Source: Flavobacteriaceae bacterium
GTDB taxonomy: Bacteria; Bacteroidota; Bacteroidia; Flavobacteriales; Flavobacteriaceae
Reading direction: 5' to 3'
Assembly: GCA_018646605.1 (NCBI GenBank)
Contig: JABGUL010000033.1
Location: 1 to 64,000 of the forward strand
DNA: 64,000 nt
This document shows, in pieces, positions 15,757-29,799 of the stretch. The translations under genes were made by a program, and so were the position numbers. The notes under the pieces were generated by a model. That model made no database searches, was not told where the DNA came from, and saw nothing but the letters and a program-made list of their open reading frames with translations. Position 1 is the first letter of the stretch, and each line of letters opens with the position of its first letter.

Positions 15757-15781
15757 CAAGCCCACTTCGGTGGGTTTTTTT
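15757..15781 (+). terminator. Rho-independent terminator after the DUF2911 gene
   Basis: CCCAC-TTCG-GTGGG (15761-15774) with a stable TTCG loop is followed by seven T residues. The stop codon of the opposing sialidase gene lies in the T-tract itself, so the two genes end back to back at this element. Confidence 0.85.
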
Positions 15782-16928
15782 ATGGAGTTTTTAGAAGTGA
15801 GTCTCCAGAAAGAATTTGAAAAGAAATACCTTCAGATCCCTTTTCATATAAAACGCCTAATGTATTGCTGTCTATTTGAACTAAGTCAGAATAGGAAGAA
15901 GCTCCTTCATGAATAAGTTTAGAATAGGTCCAATTTTGTCCTTGATCTAAACTAATTTTAAGGGTCATTTTTTCTCTCTTTTCTCTACTATTGGGTCCAG
16001 AAAATAGTAATAAGGTGTCTTGATCTTTTATGAATTGAAGTAAACTTGATTGACAGACTGGTGAAATCAATTCAGCATCGAAATATGTTTTCTCCCAACT
16101 TGCCCCTCCATCTTTGCTGATAGCAATCAAACGTTCTTTTGTGTTTCCGTTTTGCTCGCGAATATTTAACATTAAATCTCCATTGGATAATTCTACACCA
16201 ATGGCTTCGTTGGATGAGGCTACCTCAACGTCTGGGCTTACTTTCCAGTTTAAACCATGGTCATCAGAATAAAAACCATAGGCTCTGTAATCGTTATATT
16301 TTTCCTGTGGAGGGCCTTGTGAGTGGTTTGCAGGAATATAAATACGTCCTTGAAATTTCCCTTTTTTAAATTGTAGTGCATGACCAGGTGTATTTGCATG
16401 CGTTCTCCAATCCATATCTGGATGTAAAGAGTTTGCATTAAAATGTACTTGTGATGTTATGTTGACTCCCTCCGACCAATTGATACCGTTGTCTTCACTT
16501 GTTTTATACCAAACCTCCCGCACTCCTTTCCCAAGTCGCATGTCATGTTCAGAAACAGTCCCTGTATTATAAAACAAAAATATTCGGCCATTAGGATAAT
16601 TGAGGTCATATTGATCTACCACTGGGGCAGGGTTCCCAGCTTGTAAATTTTTATAGGTTGCAATAATTTTTTGAGGGCTCCAATTTTTCCCGCCATCATT
16701 GCTTAGACGAAGAAGAATATCAACTTTTCCAAAATCACCACAGTCCAATTTTCTTCCTTCTGCAAATGCAAGTAACGTACCGTTAGAAGTATTGATTATT
16801 GCAGGAATGCGATAACATGCGTATTCTCCTGTTTTGTTTTCAAATAAAGTTAACGCATCAAAATTCTCAGCTTTTTCACATTGAATAGTTAAAAAGAGAA
16901 TAAGAATAGTTCCTGTAAAAACCCTCAT
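15780..16928 (-). CDS. Sialidase (GH33, BNR-repeat) lipoprotein
   Basis: A 382-residue exo-sialidase with a lipoprotein signal (FLTIQC, Cys17). The RIP motif is CYRIPAI with Arg40 of the carboxylate-binding triad. Asp-box repeats follow: SNDGGKNW, SEDNGINW, SDDHGLNW, SKDGGASW and SLDQGQNW. Near the C-terminus SYSDL could hold the nucleophilic Tyr and VLYEKG its Glu partner. It should release terminal sialic acid outside the cell. It is followed within four bases by the SGNH esterase on the same strand, transcribed ahead of it, and the pair could remove O-acyl and sialyl groups together. No sialic-acid catabolic genes are in the window. Confidence 0.88.
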   Translation of the reverse strand: MRVFTGTILILFLTIQCEKAENFDALTLFENKTGEYACYRIPAIINTSNGTLLAFAEGRKLDCGDFGKVDILLRLSNDGGKNWSPQKIIATYKNLQAGNPAPVVDQYDLNYPNGRIFLFYNTGTVSEHDMRLGKGVREVWYKTSEDNGINWSEGVNITSQVHFNANSLHPDMDWRTHANTPGHALQFKKGKFQGRIYIPANHSQGPPQEKYNDYRAYGFYSDDHGLNWKVSPDVEVASSNEAIGVELSNGDLMLNIREQNGNTKERLIAISKDGGASWEKTYFDAELISPVCQSSLLQFIKDQDTLLLFSGPNSREKREKMTLKISLDQGQNWTYSKLIHEGASSYSDLVQIDSNTLGVLYEKGSEGISFQILSGDSLLKTP

Positions 16929-16932
16929 GGCA

Positions 16933-17616
16933 TTATTTTAAAACACTATTTATAGCTTTTTCTACCATGGGTTCCATTACCTTATAGCCTTCTAAGGTTA
17001 AGTGAACTCCATCTGTAGTCAAGGCTGGAAGTATCCCATTATTTCCATCATCGAGGGCGCTGAAATAATCTAGATAATAGACCTGATTATTTTCTGCGTA
17101 GTCTTTTATCATAGCATTTAATTTGGGGATTTTAATGTTGGGTTCAAGCCCTGGTCTCCAAGAATAATCAAAAGCAGGAAGAACAGAACATAAAATTACT
17201 TTAAGCCCATTTGCTTTAGCAATTTCAGTCATGGATTTAATATTATCTAAAATCATTTCTAAAGAAGAAGGCCCAGTATTTCCAGCAACGTCATTTGTTC
17301 CTGCTAAAATTACAACAGCTGAAGCTTCAAGGTCAATCACATCAGCACGAAATCGCACTAACATTTGAGGGGTTGTTTGTCCGCTAATTCCACGATTAAT
17401 ATATGGCTTGCCCTCGAAAAATTCAGGATGCGTTTGAAGCCAACCAATCGTTATGGAATTTCCCATGAAAACAATACGTTGTTCCCCATCTGAGGGTTTG
17501 GCAAGTTTTGTGTTAGCTTCTTTAAATTTTCCAAAATCTGGCCAATCTTGTGCAGTAATTGGAGTTGTAAGAAGGCTAAAGAGTAAAAAAAGGGATAATA
17601 AATGCGTTCGTTTCAT
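16933..17616 (-). CDS. Exported SGNH/GDSL-family esterase
   Basis: A 227-residue enzyme with a signal peptide (cleavage near TAQD, residue 23). Block I is MGNSIT with nucleophile Ser54, block II has GISGQT (Gly), block III is AGTNDV with the oxyanion Asn, and block V is TTDGVHL with Asp202 and His205. Relatives include sialate and xylan O-acetylesterases. It is the first gene of a two-gene unit with the sialidase, which favours removal of acetyl groups from sialic acid or another glycan. The fragment at 6122 is a decayed member of the same superfamily. Confidence 0.85.
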   Translation of the reverse strand: MKRTHLLSLFLLFSLLTTPITAQDWPDFGKFKEANTKLAKPSDGEQRIVFMGNSITIGWLQTHPEFFEGKPYINRGISGQTTPQMLVRFRADVIDLEASAVVILAGTNDVAGNTGPSSLEMILDNIKSMTEIAKANGLKVILCSVLPAFDYSWRPGLEPNIKIPKLNAMIKDYAENNQVYYLDYFSALDDGNNGILPALTTDGVHLTLEGYKVMEPMVEKAINSVLK

Positions 17617-17626
17617 GAAAATTGAT

Positions 17627-17659
17627 TTTGAATAAAATTACTATTTTTTACTATCTTTA
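17627..17659 (+). promoter_or_regulatory. Candidate promoter of the fucosidase-sulfatase operon
   Basis: TTTG at 17627-17630 and TATCTTTA at 17652-17659 are 21 bases apart. The -7 box matches seven of eight consensus bases. It lies 54 bases before the first fucosidase start and overlaps the 5' end region of the opposing SGNH gene's leader. Confidence 0.4.
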
Positions 17660-17712
17660 AAAGAATAAATTTTTGACTTTTCAAAAATAAGATTGAATTT
17701 AAAAACAAGCCC

Positions 17713-19056
17713 ATGAATTACAAAACTAAATTATTGCGTACACTGGTTCTATTTTGTGTATTAGCCTTTTCAAAATTGATGGCTCAGAATTATATTCCGA
17801 GCAAGGAAAATCTAGATGCACGTGTTTCATTTCAAGAAGCCAAATTCGGAATGTTTGTCCATTGGGGGGTGTATAGTATTTTAGGAGATGGTGAGTGGGT
17901 AATGAATAATCAAAATATCGCCATAGATGAATATGAAAAATTACCTAGCTTTTTCAATCCAATAGATTTTGATCCTAAAGAATGGGTTGCTCTCGTAAAA
18001 GAGGCGGGAATGAATTACATTACAATTACCAGTAGGCATCACGATGGTTTTTCAATGTTTGATTCCAAGGTCACCGATTATGATATTGTTGATGCTACTC
18101 CTTATGGTAAAGATGTATTAAAGGCTTTAGCAGAAGAATGTCGTAAGCAAGGGGTAAAATTATTTTTTTATTATTCTCTTTTAGACTGGAATAGAGATGA
18201 TTACTTTCCAAGAGGTAGAACAGGCAAAGGAATTCCAGGTAGAGGTGAAGGAGAATGGGAAGAGTATATTACTTTTATGAAAGCACAGCTCAAAGAATTA
18301 CTTACCAATTACGGAGAAATTGGAGGAATATGGTTTGATGGGCATTGGGATCAAAAAGAATGGGATGGCAAAAAATTTGGTGAATTGAAAGTAGATTGGC
18401 ATTATGATGAAATTTATAAGATGATTCATGATCTTCAGCCGCAAGCATTAATTGGAAATAACCATCATATTGGTGTAATAGATGGAGAGGATTTTCAAAT
18501 GTTTGAAAAAGATTTACCCGGAAAAAACACAACTGGATGGGGAACTGCAGCAGATCAAATCGGATTAGTGCCACTAGAAGTTTGTGAAACAATAAACGGA
18601 ACATGGGGATTTAATTTACAAGACCGTAAACACAAATCGAATAAAGAATTAATCCACTATTTAATAAAGGCAGCGGGCTATGGTAGTAATATGCTATTGA
18701 ATGTTGGTCCCATGCCCAATGGAAAAATTCAGCCTGAGCACCAATCTTCACTAAGGGCAATGGGTAAGTGGCTTAAAGAAAATGGGAATACTATATATGG
18801 AACACAAAAAGGTCCCATCGAACCTACGGACGATTTTGTATCCACACAAAAAGGTAAAACGATCTATTTACATGTATTAAATCCTGATTTAAATTTAATT
18901 CATATTGACAGGGTTCCTGTTAAAATTAAAAGCGTTAGAGTCTTAAAAACACAAAAGAATATTCCCTTTAGAAATGATAAGTTCGGGATGGTGGTTGATG
19001 TTTCTGCCCTTTCGAAAGATCCAATAGATACAGTTATTCAAATTGAATTAAAATGA
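17713..19056 (+). CDS. Alpha-L-fucosidase, GH29 (first copy)
   Basis: A 447-residue exported enzyme with a signal peptide ending at about LMAQ (residue 25). GH29 hallmarks are FGMFVHWGVYS, ITSRHHDGFSMFDS, and the nucleophile Asp209 in GIWFDGHWD. A short C-terminal beta-domain follows from about 350. It should release alpha-linked fucose from oligosaccharides with retention. First gene of a five-gene operon: its stop overlaps the acetyltransferase start (ATGA). The long insert around EWDGKKFGELKVDWHYDE between barrel strands may shape substrate choice. Linkage cannot be read from sequence. Confidence 0.9.
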   Translation: MNYKTKLLRTLVLFCVLAFSKLMAQNYIPSKENLDARVSFQEAKFGMFVHWGVYSILGDGEWVMNNQNIAIDEYEKLPSFFNPIDFDPKEWVALVKEAGMNYITITSRHHDGFSMFDSKVTDYDIVDATPYGKDVLKALAEECRKQGVKLFFYYSLLDWNRDDYFPRGRTGKGIPGRGEGEWEEYITFMKAQLKELLTNYGEIGGIWFDGHWDQKEWDGKKFGELKVDWHYDEIYKMIHDLQPQALIGNNHHIGVIDGEDFQMFEKDLPGKNTTGWGTAADQIGLVPLEVCETINGTWGFNLQDRKHKSNKELIHYLIKAAGYGSNMLLNVGPMPNGKIQPEHQSSLRAMGKWLKENGNTIYGTQKGPIEPTDDFVSTQKGKTIYLHVLNPDLNLIHIDRVPVKIKSVRVLKTQKNIPFRNDKFGMVVDVSALSKDPIDTVIQIELK

Positions 19057-20150
19057 GCACAACAAACCCCTTGAGTCAGCGATTACGATCTTTAGATTTT
19101 TTTAGAGGAGTAGTCATGTTTTTATTAGTAGCCGAATTTTCTCATCTTTTCGGAGTTTTTATGAAAACCGAAAACGAGACGATTACTGCTGCTGCAGATT
19201 TTCTTTTTCATCACGTACAGTGGGAAGGTTTACATTTTTGGGACTTGATTCAGCCTTTCTTTATGTTTATTGTAGGGGTATCGATTCCTTACTCTTATGC
19301 TAACAGATTGGAAAAAGGAGATTCAGAAAAACAGATTAGAAGACATGCTTTTCGGCGTGCTTTTTTATTATTATTGTTTGGATGGGGACTCTATTGTATA
19401 GATCCAGAAAAGATTATTTTTCAGTTTGATAATGTTTTAGCACAGCTTTCTTTCACTTATTTGGTTGCTTTTTTGTTGGTCAAAAAAACACCAATGGTTC
19501 AAGCAATTGCCGCATTAGGATTTATTTTAATTTCGGATTTTCTTTATCGTTTTTTCCCAGTTGTTGGTTTTGATCAAGCTTTTGTTGCGGGTAAGAATTT
19601 CGGAGCATGGTTTAATATATTTATTTCTGGATATGAGTATGGAGGACATTGGGCAGCTTTTAATGCGGTTCCAACTGCAGCACATACAATTTGGGGTTTG
19701 ATGGCAGGTCAATTGTTAATGAGCAAATCCTCTCACATCGATAAATTTAAACGTCTCATTGTTGTGGCTGTTATTTGTTTGGCGTTAGGGTATGCTTTAA
19801 GTTTTTTCACACCAGTAATAAAGCGTATTACAACTACTTCCTTTATATTTTTATCAGGAGGTTGGACTATTTTGGCTTTAGCCATTTGTTATTGGATAAT
19901 AGATATCAAGTCCTACATTAAAAAAACATTAGTTTTCACTGTTGTTGGAGTCAACCCCTTGTTTATTTATCTTTTTGCGTCTGTGGGTGGTGGAGATTTA
20001 TTTCAAAAAATAGCAAAACCATTTACAAACTCTCTGCTTGGAGGTATTTCTCCTTGGCTAGCAAGCTTTGTTTTAGGATTGATAGTTTTGTTTAGTCTCT
20101 GGTATGTTTGCTATTGGTTATATAAAAAGAGAATTTTTATAAAAATATAA
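19053..20150 (+). CDS. Heparan-alpha-glucosaminide N-acetyltransferase-like membrane protein (DUF5009/COG4299)
   Basis: A 365-residue polytopic protein with about ten hydrophobic helices. It opens with LRSLDFFRG and then VQWEGLHFWDLIQPFFMF...VG, the signature of the HGSNAT/DUF5009 family; the human member moves acetyl from acetyl-CoA across the lysosomal membrane to a terminal glucosamine. Here it would acetylate a sugar in the periplasm using cytosolic acetyl-CoA. The start overlaps the preceding fucosidase stop by four bases and the sulfatase follows after one base, so coupling is tight. Acceptor sugar is unproven. Confidence 0.82.
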   Translation: MSTTNPLSQRLRSLDFFRGVVMFLLVAEFSHLFGVFMKTENETITAAADFLFHHVQWEGLHFWDLIQPFFMFIVGVSIPYSYANRLEKGDSEKQIRRHAFRRAFLLLLFGWGLYCIDPEKIIFQFDNVLAQLSFTYLVAFLLVKKTPMVQAIAALGFILISDFLYRFFPVVGFDQAFVAGKNFGAWFNIFISGYEYGGHWAAFNAVPTAAHTIWGLMAGQLLMSKSSHIDKFKRLIVVAVICLALGYALSFFTPVIKRITTTSFIFLSGGWTILALAICYWIIDIKSYIKKTLVFTVVGVNPLFIYLFASVGGGDLFQKIAKPFTNSLLGGISPWLASFVLGLIVLFSLWYVCYWLYKKRIFIKI

Positions 20151-20151
20151 A

Positions 20152-21633
20152 ATGAGAATATCTTTTCTAGTCTTTATTGGATTTACATTTTTCAGTTGTT
20201 CTACAGTTGAAAATCAAAAAGATCAACCCCCTAACATTATATACATTTTAGCTGATGATTTAGGCTATGGTGAATTGGGGTCTTATGGGCAAAAAAAGAT
20301 AAAAACACCAAATCTAGACCGCCTTGCAGCAGATGGAATGCGTTTCACACAACATTATACTGGTGCTCCAGTTTGTGCACCTTCACGTTATATGTTCTTG
20401 ACTGGTAATCATGCTGGTCATGCATACATAAGAGGAAACTATGAGCTGGGTCAGTTTTCAGATGAAATGGAAGGAGGTCAAATGCCAATCCCAGAAACAA
20501 CTCCCACTTTAGCTAAAATGCTTAAAAAAGCAGGGTATCAAACAGCAATGATTGGGAAATGGGGTCTTGGTATGAATGAAACAACAGGAAGTCCTTTGTT
20601 GCATGGCTTTGATTATTATTATGGGTACCTAGACCAAAAGCAAGCGCATAATTATTACCCTACTCATCTTTGGGAAAATGATAAAAAAGACCCTTTAAAT
20701 AATGATTATTTTTTAGTCCACAGTCCAATTAGTTCTAAAGCGAATCAATCTGATTTTGACCAATTTAAAGGACAAGAATATGCCCCAGATCGAATGCTTG
20801 AAAAAGCAATTCAATTTTTGGATACTACAGCTTCAGATAAGCCATATTTTCTTTATTATCCATCCCCAATTCCACATGTTTCGCTTCAAGTGCCAGATTC
20901 TTTGGTTGATCAATATCGAGATGTTTTTGAAGAAGAACCTTATTTAGGAAACAAGGGGTATACTGCTCATCAATTTCCTAATGCGGCCTATGCAGCTATG
21001 ATTACTCATTTAGATAGCGAGGTTGGGAAAATATGGGATAGTGTCAAGGAAAAAGGCCAAGAAGAAAACACATTGATTTTATTTTCTAGTGATAATGGAC
21101 CCACTTTTGCCGGCGGAGTTGATCCTGATTTTTTTAATAGTGCAGCAGGACTAAGAGGGTTAAAGATGGATGTATATGAAGGAGGGATTAGAATTCCTTT
21201 TATAGCATATTGGAAAGGGAAAATCAAAGCCGGCTCAATTTCAGATTTAATTTCAGGTCATTGGGACATGTTCAATACGTTTGCAGAATTAGCAGGTCAA
21301 GATCAATCAGCACCCGATGGAATTTCTATTTTACCAGAACTTTTGGGGGAGTCACAAAATGAAACACACGATTATATTTACTTCGAGTATCCTGAAAAAA
21401 GAGGTCAAATTGCTTTGCGAATTGAAGATTGGAAAGGAGTAAAAGTAGAGATGAAAACAAATTTAGATTCCAAATGGGAGTTGTATAATTTAAAAACAGA
21501 CCGCAACGAGGTGTTCAATGTGGCTGCTGAACATCCTGAAATAGTTAATAAAATCGATTCACTTCACAAAACAGCCCATCGACACCCTCATATTCGTGAA
21601 TGGGAATTTGTAGATCCAAAATTTAAAAAATAA
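20152..21633 (+). CDS. Type I sulfatase, S1 family (CxPSR active site)
   Basis: A 493-residue lipoprotein (FFSCS, Cys about 16). The metal site begins with ILADDLGYGELGSYG, and the formylglycine precursor Cys75 lies in VCAPSR followed by TGNHAGH. Later motifs are MIGKWGLG, HVSLQVP, and SSDNGP with metal-binding Asp/Asn. It should hydrolyse a sulfate ester on a carbohydrate after Cys75 is oxidised by a formylglycine-generating or anSME enzyme not found in the window. S1 subfamily not assigned. It lies between the acetyltransferase and the second fucosidase in one operon. Confidence 0.9.
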   Translation: MRISFLVFIGFTFFSCSTVENQKDQPPNIIYILADDLGYGELGSYGQKKIKTPNLDRLAADGMRFTQHYTGAPVCAPSRYMFLTGNHAGHAYIRGNYELGQFSDEMEGGQMPIPETTPTLAKMLKKAGYQTAMIGKWGLGMNETTGSPLLHGFDYYYGYLDQKQAHNYYPTHLWENDKKDPLNNDYFLVHSPISSKANQSDFDQFKGQEYAPDRMLEKAIQFLDTTASDKPYFLYYPSPIPHVSLQVPDSLVDQYRDVFEEEPYLGNKGYTAHQFPNAAYAAMITHLDSEVGKIWDSVKEKGQEENTLILFSSDNGPTFAGGVDPDFFNSAAGLRGLKMDVYEGGIRIPFIAYWKGKIKAGSISDLISGHWDMFNTFAELAGQDQSAPDGISILPELLGESQNETHDYIYFEYPEKRGQIALRIEDWKGVKVEMKTNLDSKWELYNLKTDRNEVFNVAAEHPEIVNKIDSLHKTAHRHPHIREWEFVDPKFKK

Positions 21634-21639
21634 TAATCC

Positions 21640-23103
21640 ATGATTAAAAATAGTTTATTGAGTATTGGCTTAATGCTCTTACTTTTTAGTTCCTCGTGTT
21701 CAAATGAAATTCTACCCATACCTCCGGTAGAGCCATTGCCAAATGAATATCAATTGGCATGGCAAGAGTTAGAATACTATGGTTTTATTCATTTCAACAT
21801 GAATACATTTACAAATAAAGAGTGGGGATACGGAGATGAAATACCAGCACAGTTTAATCCTTCTGAACTGGATGCAAGACAATGGGCAAGAGTAGCAAAA
21901 GAAGCCGGAATGAAGGGATTGATTATTACCGCCAAGCACCACGATGGTTTTTCTTTATGGCCAAGTGCTTACACGGAACATTCCGTAAAAAACTCCCCTT
22001 GGAAAGAAGGTAAAGGAGACTTGATTCAAGAGTTGTCAGATGCCTGTAAAGAATTTGGGTTAAAATTTGGAGTATACCTTTCCCCATGGGATCGTAATCA
22101 TGCTGACTATGGAAAAAAAGAGTATGTAGATTATTATCGAAATCAACTCAGAGAATTATTAACGAACTACGGTCCTATTTTTGAAGTTTGGTTTGATGGG
22201 GCCAATGGGGGAGATGGATTTTATGGAGGTGCTAATGAAGAACGAAGAGTCGAAAAGCGTACCTATTATGAGTGGCCAACCACAATTGATCTTGTTCGTG
22301 ATTTACAGCCTAAAGCAGTTATTTTTAGTGATGCTGGTCCTGATATTCGTTGGGTAGGAAACGAAAGAGGCTATGCTTATGATACTACTTGGTCTCCCAT
22401 ACTTAGAGATAGTGTATATGCAGGAATGCCTGGTTTTGATAAATATGCAAAAGGTCAAGAGAATGGAACCCACTGGGTACCCACAGAATCCGATGTCTCG
22501 ATTCGTCCAGGTTGGTATTATCACCCCGAACAAGATGATAAAGTAAAAACATTGTCTCAGCTTGTCGACATTTATTTTAACTCGGTAGGCAGGAATAGTA
22601 ACTTCTTATTAAATCTCCCTATTGATACCAGAGGATTGGTTCACGAAAATGATGAGGCACAATTGAAAAAATTAGCGATTTATCTAAGTAAAATGTATGA
22701 AACAGATTTCGCTGATTCTGCTAAAATTAAAGCTTCGGTTTCTCGTCAGGGATATGCTGCAGATTTGATTCATGACACTAATAAACATTCTTATTGGGCC
22801 GCTCCCGAAGGAGTTAATACAGCACAAATTGAGCTAGAGTGGACAAGTCCCCAGGAGGTTAACACCTTTATGGTTCAGGAATATATTCCCCTAGGACAAA
22901 GAATCAAGTCCTTTACTTTTGAAGTCAAAACCGAGGAAGGTTGGCAGACTCTAGAAACAGGAGCAACTGTTGGCAATAAGCGATTAATTCGTTTTAATAC
23001 ACCGCCCATTACAGCCTTAAGATTTTCGATCATCGATTCAAAAGCGAGCCCGATTTTATCTAATTTAGGCGTTTATAAAGCACCTAAATTGCCTACTGAA
23101 TGA
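21640..23103 (+). CDS. Alpha-L-fucosidase, GH29 (second copy) with a galactose-binding-like domain
   Basis: A 487-residue lipoprotein (LLLFSSSC, Cys about 20). The barrel shows YGFIHFNMNTF, ITAKHHDGFSLWPS and nucleophile Asp186 in EVWFDGANGG. From about 385 the protein continues into a beta-sandwich (YWAAPEG, RIKSFTFEV, ALRFSI) like a discoidin/F5-8C carbohydrate-binding domain. HFNMNTF in place of HWG and the GANGG stretch separate it from the first copy and suggest another GH29 subfamily and linkage. Six bases follow the sulfatase; its TGA overlaps the next ATG (ATGA). Confidence 0.88.
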   Translation: MIKNSLLSIGLMLLLFSSSCSNEILPIPPVEPLPNEYQLAWQELEYYGFIHFNMNTFTNKEWGYGDEIPAQFNPSELDARQWARVAKEAGMKGLIITAKHHDGFSLWPSAYTEHSVKNSPWKEGKGDLIQELSDACKEFGLKFGVYLSPWDRNHADYGKKEYVDYYRNQLRELLTNYGPIFEVWFDGANGGDGFYGGANEERRVEKRTYYEWPTTIDLVRDLQPKAVIFSDAGPDIRWVGNERGYAYDTTWSPILRDSVYAGMPGFDKYAKGQENGTHWVPTESDVSIRPGWYYHPEQDDKVKTLSQLVDIYFNSVGRNSNFLLNLPIDTRGLVHENDEAQLKKLAIYLSKMYETDFADSAKIKASVSRQGYAADLIHDTNKHSYWAAPEGVNTAQIELEWTSPQEVNTFMVQEYIPLGQRIKSFTFEVKTEEGWQTLETGATVGNKRLIRFNTPPITALRFSIIDSKASPILSNLGVYKAPKLPTE

Positions 23104-24629
23104 TGTTTAGAAAGTTTATTTTTTTGTTTTCTATTACATGTTTTTTTGCATGTGATCCCTCAGATACCGATGCAAAGCCTAACATTATTTTATTTTTTGT
23201 AGACGACCTCGGTTGGCAGGATACATCAGTTCCTTTTTGGGATAAAAAAACCCCACTAAATGAAAAGTACAAGACACCAAATATGGAACGTCTTAGTGCC
23301 AAAGGAGTAAAATTTACAAATGCATACAGCACTCCTGTTTGTTCACCTACACGTGTAAGTTTAATTACGGGAATGAATGCAGCAAGGCACCGGGTAACCA
23401 ATTGGACACTTTATCCAGACAAAAAACAACCTATGGAATTAAATCACCCAACATTAGATTTTCCAGAATGGAATTATAATGGGGTGACTACCGATAGTAC
23501 AATAAAGCAAGCTGCCCATGCAACCCCTTTGGCTCAAATTTTAAAAGACAATGGATATTATACTGTTCATGCGGGTAAAGGGCATTTTGGAGCAATAGGC
23601 TATCCAGCTGAAGATCCAATCAACTTAGGGTTTAATGTCAATATTGCAGGTCATGCAGCTGGTGCACCAGGAAGTTATCTGGGGTCAGAAAATTTTGGAA
23701 ATAGTGACAAGTTTGGAGTTTGGGCTGTTCCAGGATTGGAAAAGTATCATGGTAAACCCATTTTTTTGACTCAAGCGCTCACCCAAGAAGCTCTTTTAGC
23801 ACTAAAGCAACCGTTGGAGTCTAAACAACCTTTCTTTTTATACCTCTCTCTTTATGGTGTTCATACACCATTGATGGCAAATCAAAAATACATTGACTTC
23901 TATCTTAATCAAGGACTCTCTGTAACTGAAGCTAAATATGCTTCTATGATTGAAAGTATGGATGAGGCTTTGGGATCTGTTCTTGACTTTGTGGAGGAAG
24001 AACAAATTGAAAAAGAAACCGTTGTTTTGTTTATGTCTGATAACGGTGGATTGAGTGCAGTGGCCCGCGGAGGAAGAAAACACATACACAATGCTCCATT
24101 GAATAGTGGAAAAGGTTCTATTTATGAAGGAGGGATACGTGTACCAATGATGGTCTATTGGCCGGGGGTAACAAAAGCTAATTCTATTGAGAAAACGCCT
24201 GTAATTATTGAAGATTTTTTTCCTTCTCTTCTCTCTGTAGCGGGAATAGAAAATTATGAAACCATTCAAAAAGTTGATGGAAAAGACTTTACAAACCTCT
24301 TGAAAGCTTCTGAAAATAAAGTTCTTGACAGACCTCTTTTTTGGCACTACCCCAATGAATGGGGACCTACCGGTCCTGGTATTGGTAGTTTTAGTGCCGT
24401 AAGAAAAGGGAATTGGAAATTAATTTATTTTCACGAAGATCAGCATTATGAACTCTATGATTTGGGCAACGACATAAGGGAGCAAAATAATTTATTAGTA
24501 AATGAAGGTTTAAAAGCCAAAGAATTGGCGATTGTTTTAAAGGATTACTTGATAAGTGTAGATGCTCAAATGCCCAGAGACAAAGTGTCTCAAAGACAAA
24601 TACCTTATTACTCTATTGACGAACTTTAG
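23100..24629 (+). CDS. Type I sulfatase, S1 family (CxPTR active site)
   Basis: A 509-residue exported sulfatase with a lipoprotein-type leader (SITCFFACD). It shows FFVDDLGWQDTSVPF, formylglycine precursor Cys81 in VCSPTR, then LITGMNAARHR, HAGKGHFGA, YGVHTPLM and MSDNGG. The Thr in CSPTR and the long insert after RVTNWTLYP set it apart from the first sulfatase, so a different sulfate position is likely. Start overlaps the fucosidase stop by four bases; either of two adjacent ATG codons (23100 or 23103) could be used. Maturation enzyme not in the window. Confidence 0.9.
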   Translation: MMFRKFIFLFSITCFFACDPSDTDAKPNIILFFVDDLGWQDTSVPFWDKKTPLNEKYKTPNMERLSAKGVKFTNAYSTPVCSPTRVSLITGMNAARHRVTNWTLYPDKKQPMELNHPTLDFPEWNYNGVTTDSTIKQAAHATPLAQILKDNGYYTVHAGKGHFGAIGYPAEDPINLGFNVNIAGHAAGAPGSYLGSENFGNSDKFGVWAVPGLEKYHGKPIFLTQALTQEALLALKQPLESKQPFFLYLSLYGVHTPLMANQKYIDFYLNQGLSVTEAKYASMIESMDEALGSVLDFVEEEQIEKETVVLFMSDNGGLSAVARGGRKHIHNAPLNSGKGSIYEGGIRVPMMVYWPGVTKANSIEKTPVIIEDFFPSLLSVAGIENYETIQKVDGKDFTNLLKASENKVLDRPLFWHYPNEWGPTGPGIGSFSAVRKGNWKLIYFHEDQHYELYDLGNDIREQNNLLVNEGLKAKELAIVLKDYLISVDAQMPRDKVSQRQIPYYSIDEL

Positions 24630-25233: not shown

Positions 25234-25530
25234 TTATCCCATTAGGGATTGGACTTTCATCGCTAAGCCCATATCTCCACTAATTTTTATTTGACCTCCC
25301 ATTACTGCCATCATTGGGTTAATGTCTCCATCACGCAATTTTTGAAGCACTTCTGCTGTAAGACTAATAGTACAATCGGTGGCATCGTCTGATGCTTTTA
25401 CTGTATTTGTATCTCCGGAACCGTCAATTAAGATGCCTACCCCGTCAACTTCAAATTTTAATGTACCTCCAATTGGAGCTGCTGTTGCTGCTCTTTTTTC
25501 AAATTGGGAAATCATATTTTCAAGACTCAT
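25234..25530 (-). CDS. SCP2 sterol/lipid-binding domain protein
   Basis: A 98-residue single-domain protein of the SCP2 fold: an early AAPIGGTLKFEVDG strand, ILIDGSG, CTISLTAEVLQKLRDGDINPM and a C-terminal IKISGDMGLAMKVQSLM helix. The family binds acyl chains or acyl-CoA in a hydrophobic tunnel. I chose Met at 25530 (MSLENM), because the upstream ATG at 25569 lies within a palindrome and adds only a low-complexity leader. It is divergent from the beta-oxidation operon, which fits a fatty-acid link. Confidence 0.8.
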   Translation of the reverse strand: MSLENMISQFEKRAATAAPIGGTLKFEVDGVGILIDGSGDTNTVKASDDATDCTISLTAEVLQKLRDGDINPMMAVMGGQIKISGDMGLAMKVQSLMG

Positions 25531-25545
25531 AGTGGTTGTTTTATT

Positions 25546-25553
25546 CAAAAATA
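25546..25553 (-). promoter_or_regulatory. -7 box of the SCP2 gene
   Basis: The minus strand reads TATTTTTG, a full match to TAnnTTTG, 16 bases before the chosen SCP2 start. The palindrome at 25561-25579 covers the region where its -33 contact would lie. Confidence 0.4.
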
Positions 25554-25560
25554 TAAAAAA

Positions 25561-25579
25561 AAATGACACGATGTCATTT
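25561..25579. promoter_or_regulatory. Palindrome AAATGACA-CGA-TGTCATTT, probable operator
   Basis: Eight-base arms are exact complements around CGA and extend further as A/T runs. It lies between divergent SCP2 and fad genes. A terminator makes little sense upstream of both genes, whereas a dimeric repressor would block both promoters. The best candidate regulator is the TetR protein encoded at the end of the fad operon. Confidence 0.55.
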
Positions 25580-25613
25580 TTTTCATTAGTTTAGACATTC
25601 AAAAAATATATTC

Positions 25614-28016
25614 ATGAAGTATCGACTCAAAAAAGTAGCAGTTTTAGGTTCTGGAGTTATGGGATCAGGGATTGCTTGTCATTTGGCTAATATTGGGATG
25701 GAAGTCTTAATGTTAGACATTATTCCTCCAAACCTTGAAGGAGATCAACTTAAAAACCAAAACCTAAGAAATAGCATAGTAAACAGCGCTTTACAAAATG
25801 CACTCAAATCAAAGCCCGCATCATTATACAAAAAATCATTTGCCTCCAGAATTTCAATAGGTAATTTTGATGATGATTTTGAAAAAATTGCTACAGCGGA
25901 TTGGATCATTGAAGTTGTTGTGGAGCGTTTGGATATAAAACATCAAGTACTACAAAAAGTAGATTCTTTTCGAAAACCGAATAGTTTGGTGACTTCTAAT
26001 ACTTCGAGTATACCGATTCATTTATTGGCAGAAAAATGTTCCGAGGATTTCAAAGCTCATTTTTGTGGGACTCACTTTTTTAATCCCCCTAGATATTTGC
26101 GTTTATTGGAAGTTATACCAACACCTGATACGCAGCCTGATGTTACTGAATTTTTTATGGAATTTGGAAAAACTGGTCTAGGAAAACAAACTGTTTTATG
26201 TAAAGACACCCCTGCTTTTATAGGCAATCGAATTGGAGTGATGTCAGGAACTGAAATGACGCTCCTTACAGAAAAATATAATTTTGGAGTGGAAGAAGTG
26301 GATGCATTGACTGGTACACTTATTGGAAGACCAAGTACTGCTACCTTCAGACTACAAGACTTAGTAGGGTTGGATACCAGTGATAATGTGAGCCGTTTTG
26401 TGATGAATAATGTACAAGGGGACACCTATATTGATAAAACAAAAGATCGTTCAGAGCCCAAGTTTATGCGTTTCCTTTTGGATAATAAATTTTTAGGTAA
26501 TAAATCAGGAAAAGGATTTTATGAAAAAACCCAAGAGCGTGATGCCAATGGGAAATCCATTATCAATGTTTTGAATCTTGAAACGCTGGAATACGAGCCA
26601 TCCGCTCGTCCAAAGCTGGATATCATAAAAACTGCCAAGGGGATGGAGTTGATGAATAAAAGACTCCAGTTTTTAGTTGATGGCGACAGTAAAGAGCATC
26701 AATTTTACAGAGATTATTTTGGAGCCTTATTCGCTTATATAGCACAACGAGTACCTGAAATTTCAGATCAATACTTCCCCGTTGATGACGCCATGCGTAC
26801 GGGTTATGTTTGGGATTATGGACCCTTTGAATATTGGGATTTAATTGGTTTAGAAAAAGGAATCGAATTAGTTGAGGCAATCGGAGAGACACTACCTCAA
26901 TGGATTTCTGATTTGAAGGCTACGGGAGAAAATACCTTTTATAAACAAGAAAAGGGACATAAAAAATATTTCAATATTCAGTCTAAGAAATTTGAGATTG
27001 TTCCCGGTTCAGAAGCCTTTATTATTTTAGATACCTATCGTGAAAACGCTCCGATAATTAAGAATAGTGAATGTACTGTTCATGATATTGGAGATGGAGT
27101 TATGTGTCTTGAATTTACAAGTAAAAGTAACGCTATTGGTGAAGGTATTGGACGTGCAATGGATGAGGTAGTTCGAATTGCAGAAGAAGGTAACTGGAAA
27201 GGTATTGTGATTGGGAATAATGGAAAACAATTTTCTGTTGGAGCCAATTTGATGAATGTTGGGATGTTGGCCATGCAGAAACAATTTGAACCTTTGGGTC
27301 AAATGATTGATGATTTTCAACAAATTAATATGCGAATACGAACATCCAAAATCCCCGTAGTTGTAGCTACTCAAGGCTACGTTTTTGGAGGTGGATGTGA
27401 AATTGCCATGCATTGTGATGCCGGGATTTATGCTGCTGAATCCTATATTGGATTGGTAGAAGTGGGAGTAGGTCTATTGCCTGGAGGAGGAGGAACCAAA
27501 GAATTTGCTGTTCGGGCGAGTGACGAATTTTTTGAAGGAGATGTTCAGTCCCCAACATTAATAAAATACTTTAAAACTATCGCTACAGCAGCGGTTTCCA
27601 CTTCTGCATACGAAGCGTATGATTTAAATTATTTAAAAGAAGGACGCGACTTTGTTAGTGTTAACACTCCAATGAATATTGGATTAGCAAAAGACAAAGT
27701 ATTACAATTATCAAAAAACTACATGCCTCCCTCGGTTAGAGAAGATATTGAAGTTCTTGGTAGAGGTGGATTGAGTGTATTGTATTCGGCTATAAACGAA
27801 TTCAGATTGGGTGAATATATGTCAGATTATGATGTGGAGATTGCTCGTAAAATTGCTTATGTAATTTGTGGGGGTGATTTAACTAGTGCTCAAAAAGTAA
27901 GTGAACAGTATTTATTGGATATTGAAAGAGAAGGTTTTTTAAGTCTTTTAGGAAATCAAAAAACCTTAGACCGTATCCAATATCTCCTCATGAATAATAA
28001 ACCTTTAAGAAACTAA
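25614..28016 (+). CDS. fadN: 3-hydroxyacyl-CoA dehydrogenase / enoyl-CoA hydratase fusion (FadN type)
   Basis: An 800-residue bifunctional beta-oxidation enzyme. The dehydrogenase comes first: NAD site GSGVMGSGIACHLA at about 11-24, then SNTSSIP and the catalytic-His stretch GTHFFNPP. Two C-terminal dehydrogenase repeats follow, then the enoyl-CoA hydratase/crotonase domain at about 490-680 (ANLMNVGM, YVFGGGCEIAMHCD, GLLPGGGGTKE). This order is the reverse of E. coli FadB and matches B. subtilis FadN. It hydrates trans-2-enoyl-CoA and oxidises the 3-hydroxyacyl-CoA. Thiolase follows three bases later. Confidence 0.92.
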   Translation: MKYRLKKVAVLGSGVMGSGIACHLANIGMEVLMLDIIPPNLEGDQLKNQNLRNSIVNSALQNALKSKPASLYKKSFASRISIGNFDDDFEKIATADWIIEVVVERLDIKHQVLQKVDSFRKPNSLVTSNTSSIPIHLLAEKCSEDFKAHFCGTHFFNPPRYLRLLEVIPTPDTQPDVTEFFMEFGKTGLGKQTVLCKDTPAFIGNRIGVMSGTEMTLLTEKYNFGVEEVDALTGTLIGRPSTATFRLQDLVGLDTSDNVSRFVMNNVQGDTYIDKTKDRSEPKFMRFLLDNKFLGNKSGKGFYEKTQERDANGKSIINVLNLETLEYEPSARPKLDIIKTAKGMELMNKRLQFLVDGDSKEHQFYRDYFGALFAYIAQRVPEISDQYFPVDDAMRTGYVWDYGPFEYWDLIGLEKGIELVEAIGETLPQWISDLKATGENTFYKQEKGHKKYFNIQSKKFEIVPGSEAFIILDTYRENAPIIKNSECTVHDIGDGVMCLEFTSKSNAIGEGIGRAMDEVVRIAEEGNWKGIVIGNNGKQFSVGANLMNVGMLAMQKQFEPLGQMIDDFQQINMRIRTSKIPVVVATQGYVFGGGCEIAMHCDAGIYAAESYIGLVEVGVGLLPGGGGTKEFAVRASDEFFEGDVQSPTLIKYFKTIATAAVSTSAYEAYDLNYLKEGRDFVSVNTPMNIGLAKDKVLQLSKNYMPPSVREDIEVLGRGGLSVLYSAINEFRLGEYMSDYDVEIARKIAYVICGGDLTSAQKVSEQYLLDIEREGFLSLLGNQKTLDRIQYLLMNNKPLRN

Positions 28017-28019
28017 ACA

Positions 28020-29189
28020 ATGGAAGCATATATTATCAAAGGCTACAGATCTGCTGTAGGAAAAGCAAATAAAGGAGGATTTAAAAACTATCGTTCCGAT
28101 GATTTAGCAGTAGAAGTAATCAAACATTTAATGGCAGCTGTTCCTGAGGTTGATCCAAAGTCAATAGACGATGTAATTGTGGGCTGTGCTAATCCAGAAG
28201 GAGAGCAAGGGCTGCAAGTAGGTCGTTTGATTGCAGCTAGAGCTTTAGGAAAAGAAGTTCCCGGAATTACGATTAACCGTTATTGTGCATCAGGTTTGGA
28301 AGCAATCTCACAAGCTGTCGCAAAAATTAATGCTGGTTTTGGTCATATCTATCTAGCTGGTGGAGCTGAAAGTATGAGTATGATCCCAATGACAGGTTAC
28401 AAGCTAGCTCCGAGTTATAAAGCCAATTTGGAAAATCTAAATTATCACGTCGGTATGGGAGCAACTGCAGAAGCAGTAGCTGCCAAATATGGTATTACTA
28501 GAGAAGCAGCTGATCTTTTTTCTTTTGAGTCTCACAATAAAGCGACCGCCGCAATTGATGGGGGTAAATTTAATGACCAGATTGTTCCTATTGAGGTTGA
28601 AGAGGTTTTTGTGGCCGACGGAAAACGAGCGACTAAAACCCATACGGTCTCTATGGATGAGGGAGTAAGACGTGAAACTAGTTTGGAGGGATTAGCAAAA
28701 TTACGTCCCGCCTTTAAAGTAAAAGGTGTCGTAACTGCAGGTAATGCTTCTCAAACTTCTGATGGAGCTGCGTTTACTTTGGTGGTCAGCGAAACCATGG
28801 TAAAGCAATTGAATTTAAAACCTATTGCTCGTTTAGCAGCTTGCGCTGTGGGGGGTGTTGATCCTTTGTATATGGGAATTGGACCTTGCATAGCGATTCC
28901 AAAGGCACTGAAACAAGCAGGTTTACAACTGAGCGACATTGAACAAACGGAGTTAAATGAAGCGTTTGGAGCTCAAGCATTAGCAGTAATTCAAGAAGCA
29001 GGATTAAATCCAGAAACAGTCAATGTAAACGGAGGCGCTATTGCATTGGGGCATCCACTGGGATGTACAGGCGCAAAGCTTACAATACAATTGTTAGATG
29101 AAATGCAACGACGCAAACAGCGCTATGGTATGGTTACTGCCTGTGTGGGTGGGGGTCAAGGAATTGCAGGTATTTTCGAACGATTATAA
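28020..29189 (+). CDS. fadA: Acetyl-CoA C-acyltransferase (3-ketoacyl-CoA thiolase)
   Basis: A 389-residue thiolase completing beta-oxidation by cleaving 3-ketoacyl-CoA to acetyl-CoA and a shortened acyl-CoA. The acyl-accepting Cys89 is in NRYCASGLEA, NEAFGAQ marks the third motif, and GHPLGCTGAKL plus the CVGGGQG end carry the His and second Cys. Length and motifs are standard. It is sandwiched between fadN and the TetR gene with gaps of three and four bases, a clear operon. An acyl-CoA dehydrogenase is not in the window. Confidence 0.93.
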   Translation: MEAYIIKGYRSAVGKANKGGFKNYRSDDLAVEVIKHLMAAVPEVDPKSIDDVIVGCANPEGEQGLQVGRLIAARALGKEVPGITINRYCASGLEAISQAVAKINAGFGHIYLAGGAESMSMIPMTGYKLAPSYKANLENLNYHVGMGATAEAVAAKYGITREAADLFSFESHNKATAAIDGGKFNDQIVPIEVEEVFVADGKRATKTHTVSMDEGVRRETSLEGLAKLRPAFKVKGVVTAGNASQTSDGAAFTLVVSETMVKQLNLKPIARLAACAVGGVDPLYMGIGPCIAIPKALKQAGLQLSDIEQTELNEAFGAQALAVIQEAGLNPETVNVNGGAIALGHPLGCTGAKLTIQLLDEMQRRKQRYGMVTACVGGGQGIAGIFERL

Positions 29190-29193
29190 TCTC

Positions 29194-29799
29194 ATGAATA
29201 CAGAAACACATCTTTTAGGTAAACGCGAATCTTCGAAAATTCAGATTCGCGAACGCCTATTGGACGAGTCTCTAAAGTTGTTTTCATCAAGAGGTTTGGA
29301 AAAAACTACCGTAGCCGATATTGTTGAACAAAGTGGTATTGCCCGTGGTACTTTCTATAATTACTTCCCAGATGTTAATTCTCTATTTGATGCTATTATT
29401 TCTCAAATGAATGGAAATATTCAAACTGAAATTAAGGCTAATAGAGAGAAGTCACTCTCCGTTTATGACTATCTATTTGCAACCTTTAAATGCTATTTTG
29501 ATTTTATAGGTTCTCCTCAAATGATAGATTTTCATGTGATTAACCAGGCGCACATTCGTCAAAGCTCTTACCAAAGTGAAATTATTAAAACCATAGTCAA
29601 AGACTTAATTCGAGATTTAAAATCTTCAAAACGGATTAAGGATTTTAATGAAAAATACGAATTTCTTCTTTTGAGTTTTATGCTCGTGGGCGCGCCTCCT
29701 GAACTTTTTTTAGCAACCCATACTTCTGATATTAATCTCAGTAGCGAGCAATTGGCCACTTTCTTAGCCAAGGTGTTTCATAAAGTATTGATGGAGTAG
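29194..29799 (+). CDS. TetR-family regulator of the fad operon
   Basis: A 201-residue repressor-like protein. The HTH is near residues 25-65: LFSSRGLEKTTVADIVEQSG then ARGTFYNYFPDV. The rest is an all-helical ligand domain, expected to sense acyl-CoA by analogy with FadR-type TetR proteins. I use the ATG at 29194, four bases after the thiolase stop; an upstream ATG inside the thiolase gene would add 32 out-of-family residues. The palindrome at 25561-25579 is its likely operator, making the operon autoregulated. Confidence 0.82.
   Translation: MNTETHLLGKRESSKIQIRERLLDESLKLFSSRGLEKTTVADIVEQSGIARGTFYNYFPDVNSLFDAIISQMNGNIQTEIKANREKSLSVYDYLFATFKCYFDFIGSPQMIDFHVINQAHIRQSSYQSEIIKTIVKDLIRDLKSSKRIKDFNEKYEFLLLSFMLVGAPPELFLATHTSDINLSSEQLATFLAKVFHKVLME

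Follow-up and report, generated by a model that had tools for sequence, protein, structure and literature searches.

A conserved palindrome between SCP2 and fadN is a putative operator of a TetR-family regulator of fatty-acid breakdown in marine Flavobacteriaceae

Repressors of beta-oxidation that belong to the TetR family are already known, as is the replacement of one fatty-acid regulator by another, from the work outlined in PMC6449355, PMC5597230 and PMC5343134. In Bacillus subtilis, the TetR-family protein FadR is described as targeting fadN-fadA-fadE, the etfB-etfA operon and fadF (PMC4525379), while the operator of Thermus thermophilus FadR is given as TTRNACYNRGTNYAA (PMC5597230). The FadR of Sulfolobus acidocaldarius is reported to have few sites, within a fatty-acid cluster and including its own promoter, from which acyl-CoA releases it (PMC6449355). 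For Proteobacteria, the account in PMC5343134 has the non-orthologous regulators FadR, PsrA and FadP replacing each other in sister lineages.

The locus analysed here shares with the B. subtilis system, as its regulon is outlined there, a TetR-family regulator that goes with fadNA and etfBA throughout the genus and with a FadF-like gene in a subclade; it differs in that SCP2 is added and that the regulator gene ends fadNA instead of lying in the etfBA operon. The operator sequence of B. subtilis FadR differs from the operator here. Our protein resembles Thermus FadR in its TetR fold, predicted dimer, fatty-acid genes and a weak sequence match (3ang), but its operators, judged by eye, do not fit the Thermus class as given, TTRNACYNRGTNYAA; they fit TGACACNGTGTCA. 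The S. acidocaldarius protein, unlike ours, is archaeal and is described with a 16-bp motif. Whereas the proteobacterial replacements, as described, involve the GntR and TetR families, the case considered below involves MarR and TetR in Bacteroidota, where the same genes show each of the two operators. A literature search found no fad regulon under TetR or MarR control described in Flavobacteriaceae, and no paper on this TetR regulator, the TGACAC operator or the MarR palindrome, with subscription literature outside its scope and the absence weak evidence. The genus is probably MS024-2A of GTDB, in the NS5 group, the name on records near by TetR (in the usage of PMC9122927). For this genus of uncultured marine flavobacteria, the locus offers a regulator, an operator and a fat-breakdown regulon that can be put to the test, and would tie a small lipid-binding SCP2 protein to beta-oxidation through shared control.

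In the window, by which we mean the whole 64,000-nucleotide stretch of DNA that was analysed, the relevant features are the following.

25234..25530, minus strand: SCP2 domain protein, 98 aa (PF02036, E 1.1e-17), ATG at 25530
25546..25553, minus strand: SCP2 -7 box TATTTTTG, starting 17 bases from the palindrome centre
25557..25583: putative operator of 27 bp, 12-base arms (25557-25568 and 25572-25583) around CGA
25561-25579: palindrome AAATGACA-CGA-TGTCATTT, between SCP2 and fadN
25564-25576: operator core TGACACGATGTCA, genus consensus TGACAC-N-GTGTCA
25587..25594, plus strand: fadN -7 box TAGTTTAG, one base off consensus, starting 17 bases from the palindrome centre
25614..28016, plus strand: fadN, 3-hydroxyacyl-CoA dehydrogenase / enoyl-CoA hydratase, 800 aa (PF02737, PF00725, PF00378), ATG at 25614
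28020..29189, plus strand: fadA, thiolase, 389 aa (PF00108, PF02803)
29194..29799, plus strand: TetR-family regulator, 201 aa, final gene of the operon (PF00440, 48.1 bits, cut-off 24)

SCP2 and fadN are divergent, with starts 83 bases apart. A preliminary description of this DNA had placed a 19-base palindrome with 8-base arms between the two genes, flanked by a perfect -7 box for SCP2 and a near-match for fadN, and had the TetR gene closing the fad operon. The palindrome proved to be as described, both boxes are in place, and the thiolase ends at 29189 with the TetR ATG at 29194. A/T tails lengthen the arms from 8 to 12 bases, and the window core TGACACGATGTCA is a single base off the consensus TGACAC-N-GTGTCA. 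Since each -7 box starts 17 bases downstream of the palindrome centre, the site overlaps both predicted -33 regions; if the flavobacterial -7 consensus TAnnTTTG sits at -12 to -5, as given in PMC9723704, the 13-base core would fall at about -35 to -23 of both genes. The window copy is thus placed to block RNA polymerase at its two predicted promoters. Among congeners, a loose TANNTTN[GA] box lies 17 or 18 bases from the centre on the SCP2 side, and the box on the fadN side lies at 16-18 bases in 34/34. The short stem between A and T runs could also be taken for a bidirectional terminator or RNA hairpin (A-run, stem, T-run), as could the position of the etfB copy downstream of xylA in the window's genome; yet the palindrome stands between divergent starts, with both -7 boxes downstream of it, and so is part of neither transcript of the pair, and the sequence itself, beyond its pairing, is conserved across genera. 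We consider a terminator very improbable and discarded it on these two grounds.

On its own, the palindrome does not exceed random expectation. The window has 3 repeats whose 8-base arms are separated by 3 bases, and 30 simulated windows gave 0-5 of them each (mean about 2); the exact 10-base core TGACA-N3-TGTCA is found at one place in the window and at three in the 1.98 Mb genome. Conservation and position are what make the palindrome significant. TetR was found in 35 of the 38 genomes of the genus (G019, G024 and G035 gave no match), and fadN intergenic regions were readable in 34 of the 38, with G028 cut by a contig end. In all 34 readable SCP2/fadN regions the exact TGACA-N3-TGTCA is kept, SCP2 is divergent to fadN, and every sufficiently long locus has SCP2 / fadN-fadA-tetR in uninterrupted order. 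The twelve arm positions are invariant in these regions except the first after the centre, which is G in 26 and A in 8; with arms near-invariant and the centre base free, the real motif is TGACAC-N-GTGTCA, and the window holds one of the eight single-departure forms. When the half-site was scanned in all 60 orderings of its bases, only TGACA was present (32/32 intergenic regions; other orderings, 0). A chance product of AT-rich DNA would suit the random-level palindrome count in the window and the three exact cores per 1.98 Mb, but not conservation in 34/34 regions, nor the location of 58/58 consensus sites at fatty-acid genes; its probability is practically negligible, and conservation rules it out.

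We then compared the presence of the site with that of TetR outside the genus. In seven genomes from four other genera, with TetR 49-60% identical, TGAC-N5-GTCA lies at the same place in 7/7, scoring 12, 12, 12, 11, 10, 10 and 9 of 12 (the last three by eye). Among ten Saprospiraceae records, with TetR 40-47% identical, the site is present at at least 11/12 in seven: before fadN-fadA-tetR in L297, L300, L305 and L307, and directly before tetR in L298, L306 and L309. As for the other three, no site was seen at TetR loci L296 and L308, and L302 is unreadable upstream of fadN; the unclassified L301 scores 10/12. In genera that lack TetR, 0/22 fadN promoters have the TGACAC site, the best scoring 8/12; these 22 include G051, which has a 39% paralogue elsewhere, and locus L193, whose match to fadN is partial. 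The strongest sign that TetR is the binder is that the site goes with tetR where this gene lies outside the fadN operon. Against this linkage, G019, a 78% complete bin, has the etfB site with no TetR found, and four g163 and g202 genomes with TetR have no site before etfB. The preliminary description had named absence of the palindrome where TetR is present as the result that would speak against its proposal of one regulator for fatty-acid breakdown and SCP2; the palindrome being kept in 34/34 congeners, 7/7 genomes of other genera and 7/10 Saprospiraceae, the comparison supports that proposal. More distant relatives behave differently: Formosa proteins 38-40% identical to TetR have no TGACAC site at their loci, and the relatives in L069 and L211 (38-39% identity) adjoin an aldehyde dehydrogenase gene, also without the site, and are perhaps a sister regulator with a different operator.

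The sites elsewhere in these genomes define a candidate regulon. The exact consensus TGACACNGTGTCA occurs 58 times in 38 congener genomes and the reversed control pattern 0 times; by their neighbours, the sites divide into SCP2/fadN (26), etfB (29) and a FadF-like gene (3). Seven further genomes have an etfB site at 10/12 or 11/12, so that together with the 29 exact sites etfB has a site of at least 10/12 in 36/36 genomes in which it was found. Such a placing of operators at beta-oxidation and ETF promoters, seen here by sequence comparison only, is a FadR-like trait. In the window's genome, the scan for TGACA-N3-TGTCA that had been suggested at the outset turned up one other strong site, before etfBA-scoAB (L071 8782-8794), consistent with fatty-acid breakdown. 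With up to two mismatches allowed, 26 places were found (sites in the overlapping loci L133 and L134, two of them common to both, counted once), of which 23 are inside ORFs and three are intergenic, at SCP2/fadN, at etfB and, weakly, before miaB. A broader regulon outside fatty-acid genes was rejected on the 23/26 near matches within ORFs. The third exact core, TGACAAAATGTCA (G000 C8:13307-13319; L070 8308-8320), is intergenic and lies 62 bases before the miaB-like gene.

The FadF-like gene encodes an iron-sulphur protein with Fer4 domains, presumably similar to FadF, and only members of a subclade of the genus have the site before it. Among 30 rows of fadF loci, one ends at a contig edge, two are exact, four score 10/12 and 23 lower; the third exact site, in G015, was found separately. 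In the window's species the upstream region scores 6/12, and FadF was dropped as a target there. The 604-aa FadE of g207, used as query, matched 0/38 genus genomes at E 1e-100, an uninformative result; another FadE query matched in 28/38 congeners, at loci that carry a MarR-type box and no TetR core, and FadE was likewise dropped as a target in the genus. No match to this FadE was found in the window's genome, despite the retention of fadNA, etfBA, SCP2 and TetR. SCP2 is among the operator-flanking genes in all 34 regions, and in some genera it stands in line with fadE and etfB. In L207, L210 and L300, fadE and SCP2 are divergent to fadN-fadA-tetR across the TGACAC operator, with etfB next in L207 and L210, and the tie between SCP2 and beta-oxidation is more direct there than in the window.

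In genera that lack TetR, a MarR gene lies directly before fadN, and the palindrome TATGC-RY-GCATA lies before that MarR. This box precedes MarR-fadN in 19/20 complete loci besides G057 (18 exact, one at 9/10), and etfB in 21/23 genomes, including G057 and two g15 genomes whose TetR relative is 38-39% identical; it is missing from G059 and G060, two genomes in which our search found no MarR. TATGC-RY-GCATA probably serves as operator for the MarR protein that regulates fatty-acid genes in this family. In Flavobacteriaceae it spans L173-L192 (fadN loci) and L220-L243 (etfB loci). Most TetR-carrying genomes retain MarR, but none of the nine loci inspected has it upstream of a TetR-type fadN: in eight it belongs to a fadD-MarR-fadE operon that carries a box of its own, and in the ninth, L251 (G009), MarR precedes a second, MarR-type fadN (gene names from translations). 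The box stands before MarR-fadE in 27/29 rows, two rows being one genome; both rows without it are short loci that contig ends have probably cut. In the window's genome, as in G004 and G025, neither MarR nor the congeners' FadE was matched, no TATGC-RY-GCATA was found in the window or in five other loci of the same genome that were scanned, and the pairing of MarR before fadN with its box, which marks a MarR-controlled fad regulon, is not seen.

These data bear on a second reading of the TGACAC palindrome, in which another regulator, such as the family's MarR, would bind it and the TetR gene would be an operon passenger. MarR is present in most TetR-carrying congeners (19/22 genus genomes searched), and appears to control fad genes elsewhere in the family. 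Against such a role, the window's genome has the palindrome and no MarR match, MarR goes with TATGC-RY-GCATA even within TetR-carrying genomes, and the TGACAC site precedes tetR in L298, L306 and L309 while being absent from 22/22 TetR-lacking fadN promoters. We therefore rejected MarR as binder on its covariation with the other palindrome, and regard any binder other than TetR as improbable.

The TetR protein carries the TetR_N helix-turn-helix of its family (PF00440, scored above), and its AlphaFold2 model, all helices with a mean pLDDT of 78.6, has the two-domain TetR fold. The Foldseek matches listed for the model are TetR-type regulators, and it fits Bacillus FadR, EthR2, Rv0078 and MtrR about equally (TM about 0.6), so the structure does not name the ligand; the modelled ligand domain has only a weak likeness to FadR proteins. 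The protein scores 36.9 bits against a cut-off of 200 in the test for Bacillus FadR orthologues (NF053878). Its best PDB sequence match, at 40 bits and mainly over the DNA-binding half, is 6el2, which we take to be Sulfolobus FadR.

Comparison across genomes shows the putative operator, its candidate targets and their linkage to TetR. Very likely, the palindrome serves as operator for the TetR protein whose gene ends the fadN-fadA operon, a protein that would do a FadR-like job with acyl-CoA the likely releasing signal. A TetR dimer on the operator would cover the -33 region of both divergent promoters, repressing SCP2 on one side and fadN-fadA-tetR, its own gene included, on the other; we infer physical binding, repression and negative autoregulation from this arrangement. 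At the second operator copy elsewhere in the genome, TetR would repress etfBA (electron-transfer flavoprotein) and scoAB (CoA transferase). Fatty acids entering as acyl-CoA would most likely act through acyl-CoA binding to TetR and releasing it, upon which SCP2, the lipid-binding protein, would rise together with the enzymes and the electron carrier. Acyl-CoA is probably the inducer by analogy with described FadR systems. It is possible, though we think it doubtful, that TetR binds and senses another ligand, such as a branched or aromatic acyl-CoA, or acts as an activator: the model fits FadR no better than it fits EthR2, Rv0078 or MtrR, and the congeners' FadE was not found in the window's genome. 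However, the overlap of the operator with the -33 region favours repression, and the targets parallel the acyl-CoA-released Bacillus FadR regulon as outlined in PMC4525379.

The most interesting part is the proposed swap of MarR for TetR, regulator and operator together. In the fadN tree, TetR-type Flavobacteriaceae sequences group with Saprospiraceae, at a distance from the MarR-type sequences of the family they belong to, and the TetR tree is compatible with this. The etfB genes of TetR-type genomes form their own group, except those of g202, which are of the family type and have no TetR site. The trees suggest that the cassette arrived as one unit. G057 (genus g21; L213, 99% complete) falls within the TetR-type fadN group and has no tetR that we could find; its joint SCP2/fadN region, next to etfBA, holds a 28-base perfect MarR-type palindrome, AAATTTATTATGCGCGCATAATAAATTT, about 46 bases before fadN. 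This is a single genome whose fork to its nearest neighbours is weak (93/74), the enclosing larger groups being well supported.

On balance, we lean towards a history, taken as one claim, in which a whole fatty-acid regulon swapped both regulator and operator. Most sampled Flavobacteriaceae genera would use MarR, with TATGC-RY-GCATA before fadN and etfB; a cassette common to Saprospiraceae (fadE-SCP2-etfBA / TGACAC-N-GTGTCA / fadN-fadA-tetR) would have taken the place of MarR in one group of small-genome marine Flavobacteriaceae; MarR would have been pushed to the fadD-MarR-fadE locus, and the window's species would seem to have lost it; and the exchange would have been reversed in the nested G057 lineage, with tetR gone and a perfect MarR-type palindrome in that promoter. 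If true, this would offer a natural before-and-after series of a regulon changing its regulator. As the two operators are readable at orthologous promoters, it can be tested directly in what order the steps of such a replacement took place.

Upstream of SCP2, window positions 15780-24629 hold clustered sulfatase-like, fucosidase-like and esterase-like genes (from translations only), which look like a polysaccharide utilisation cluster.
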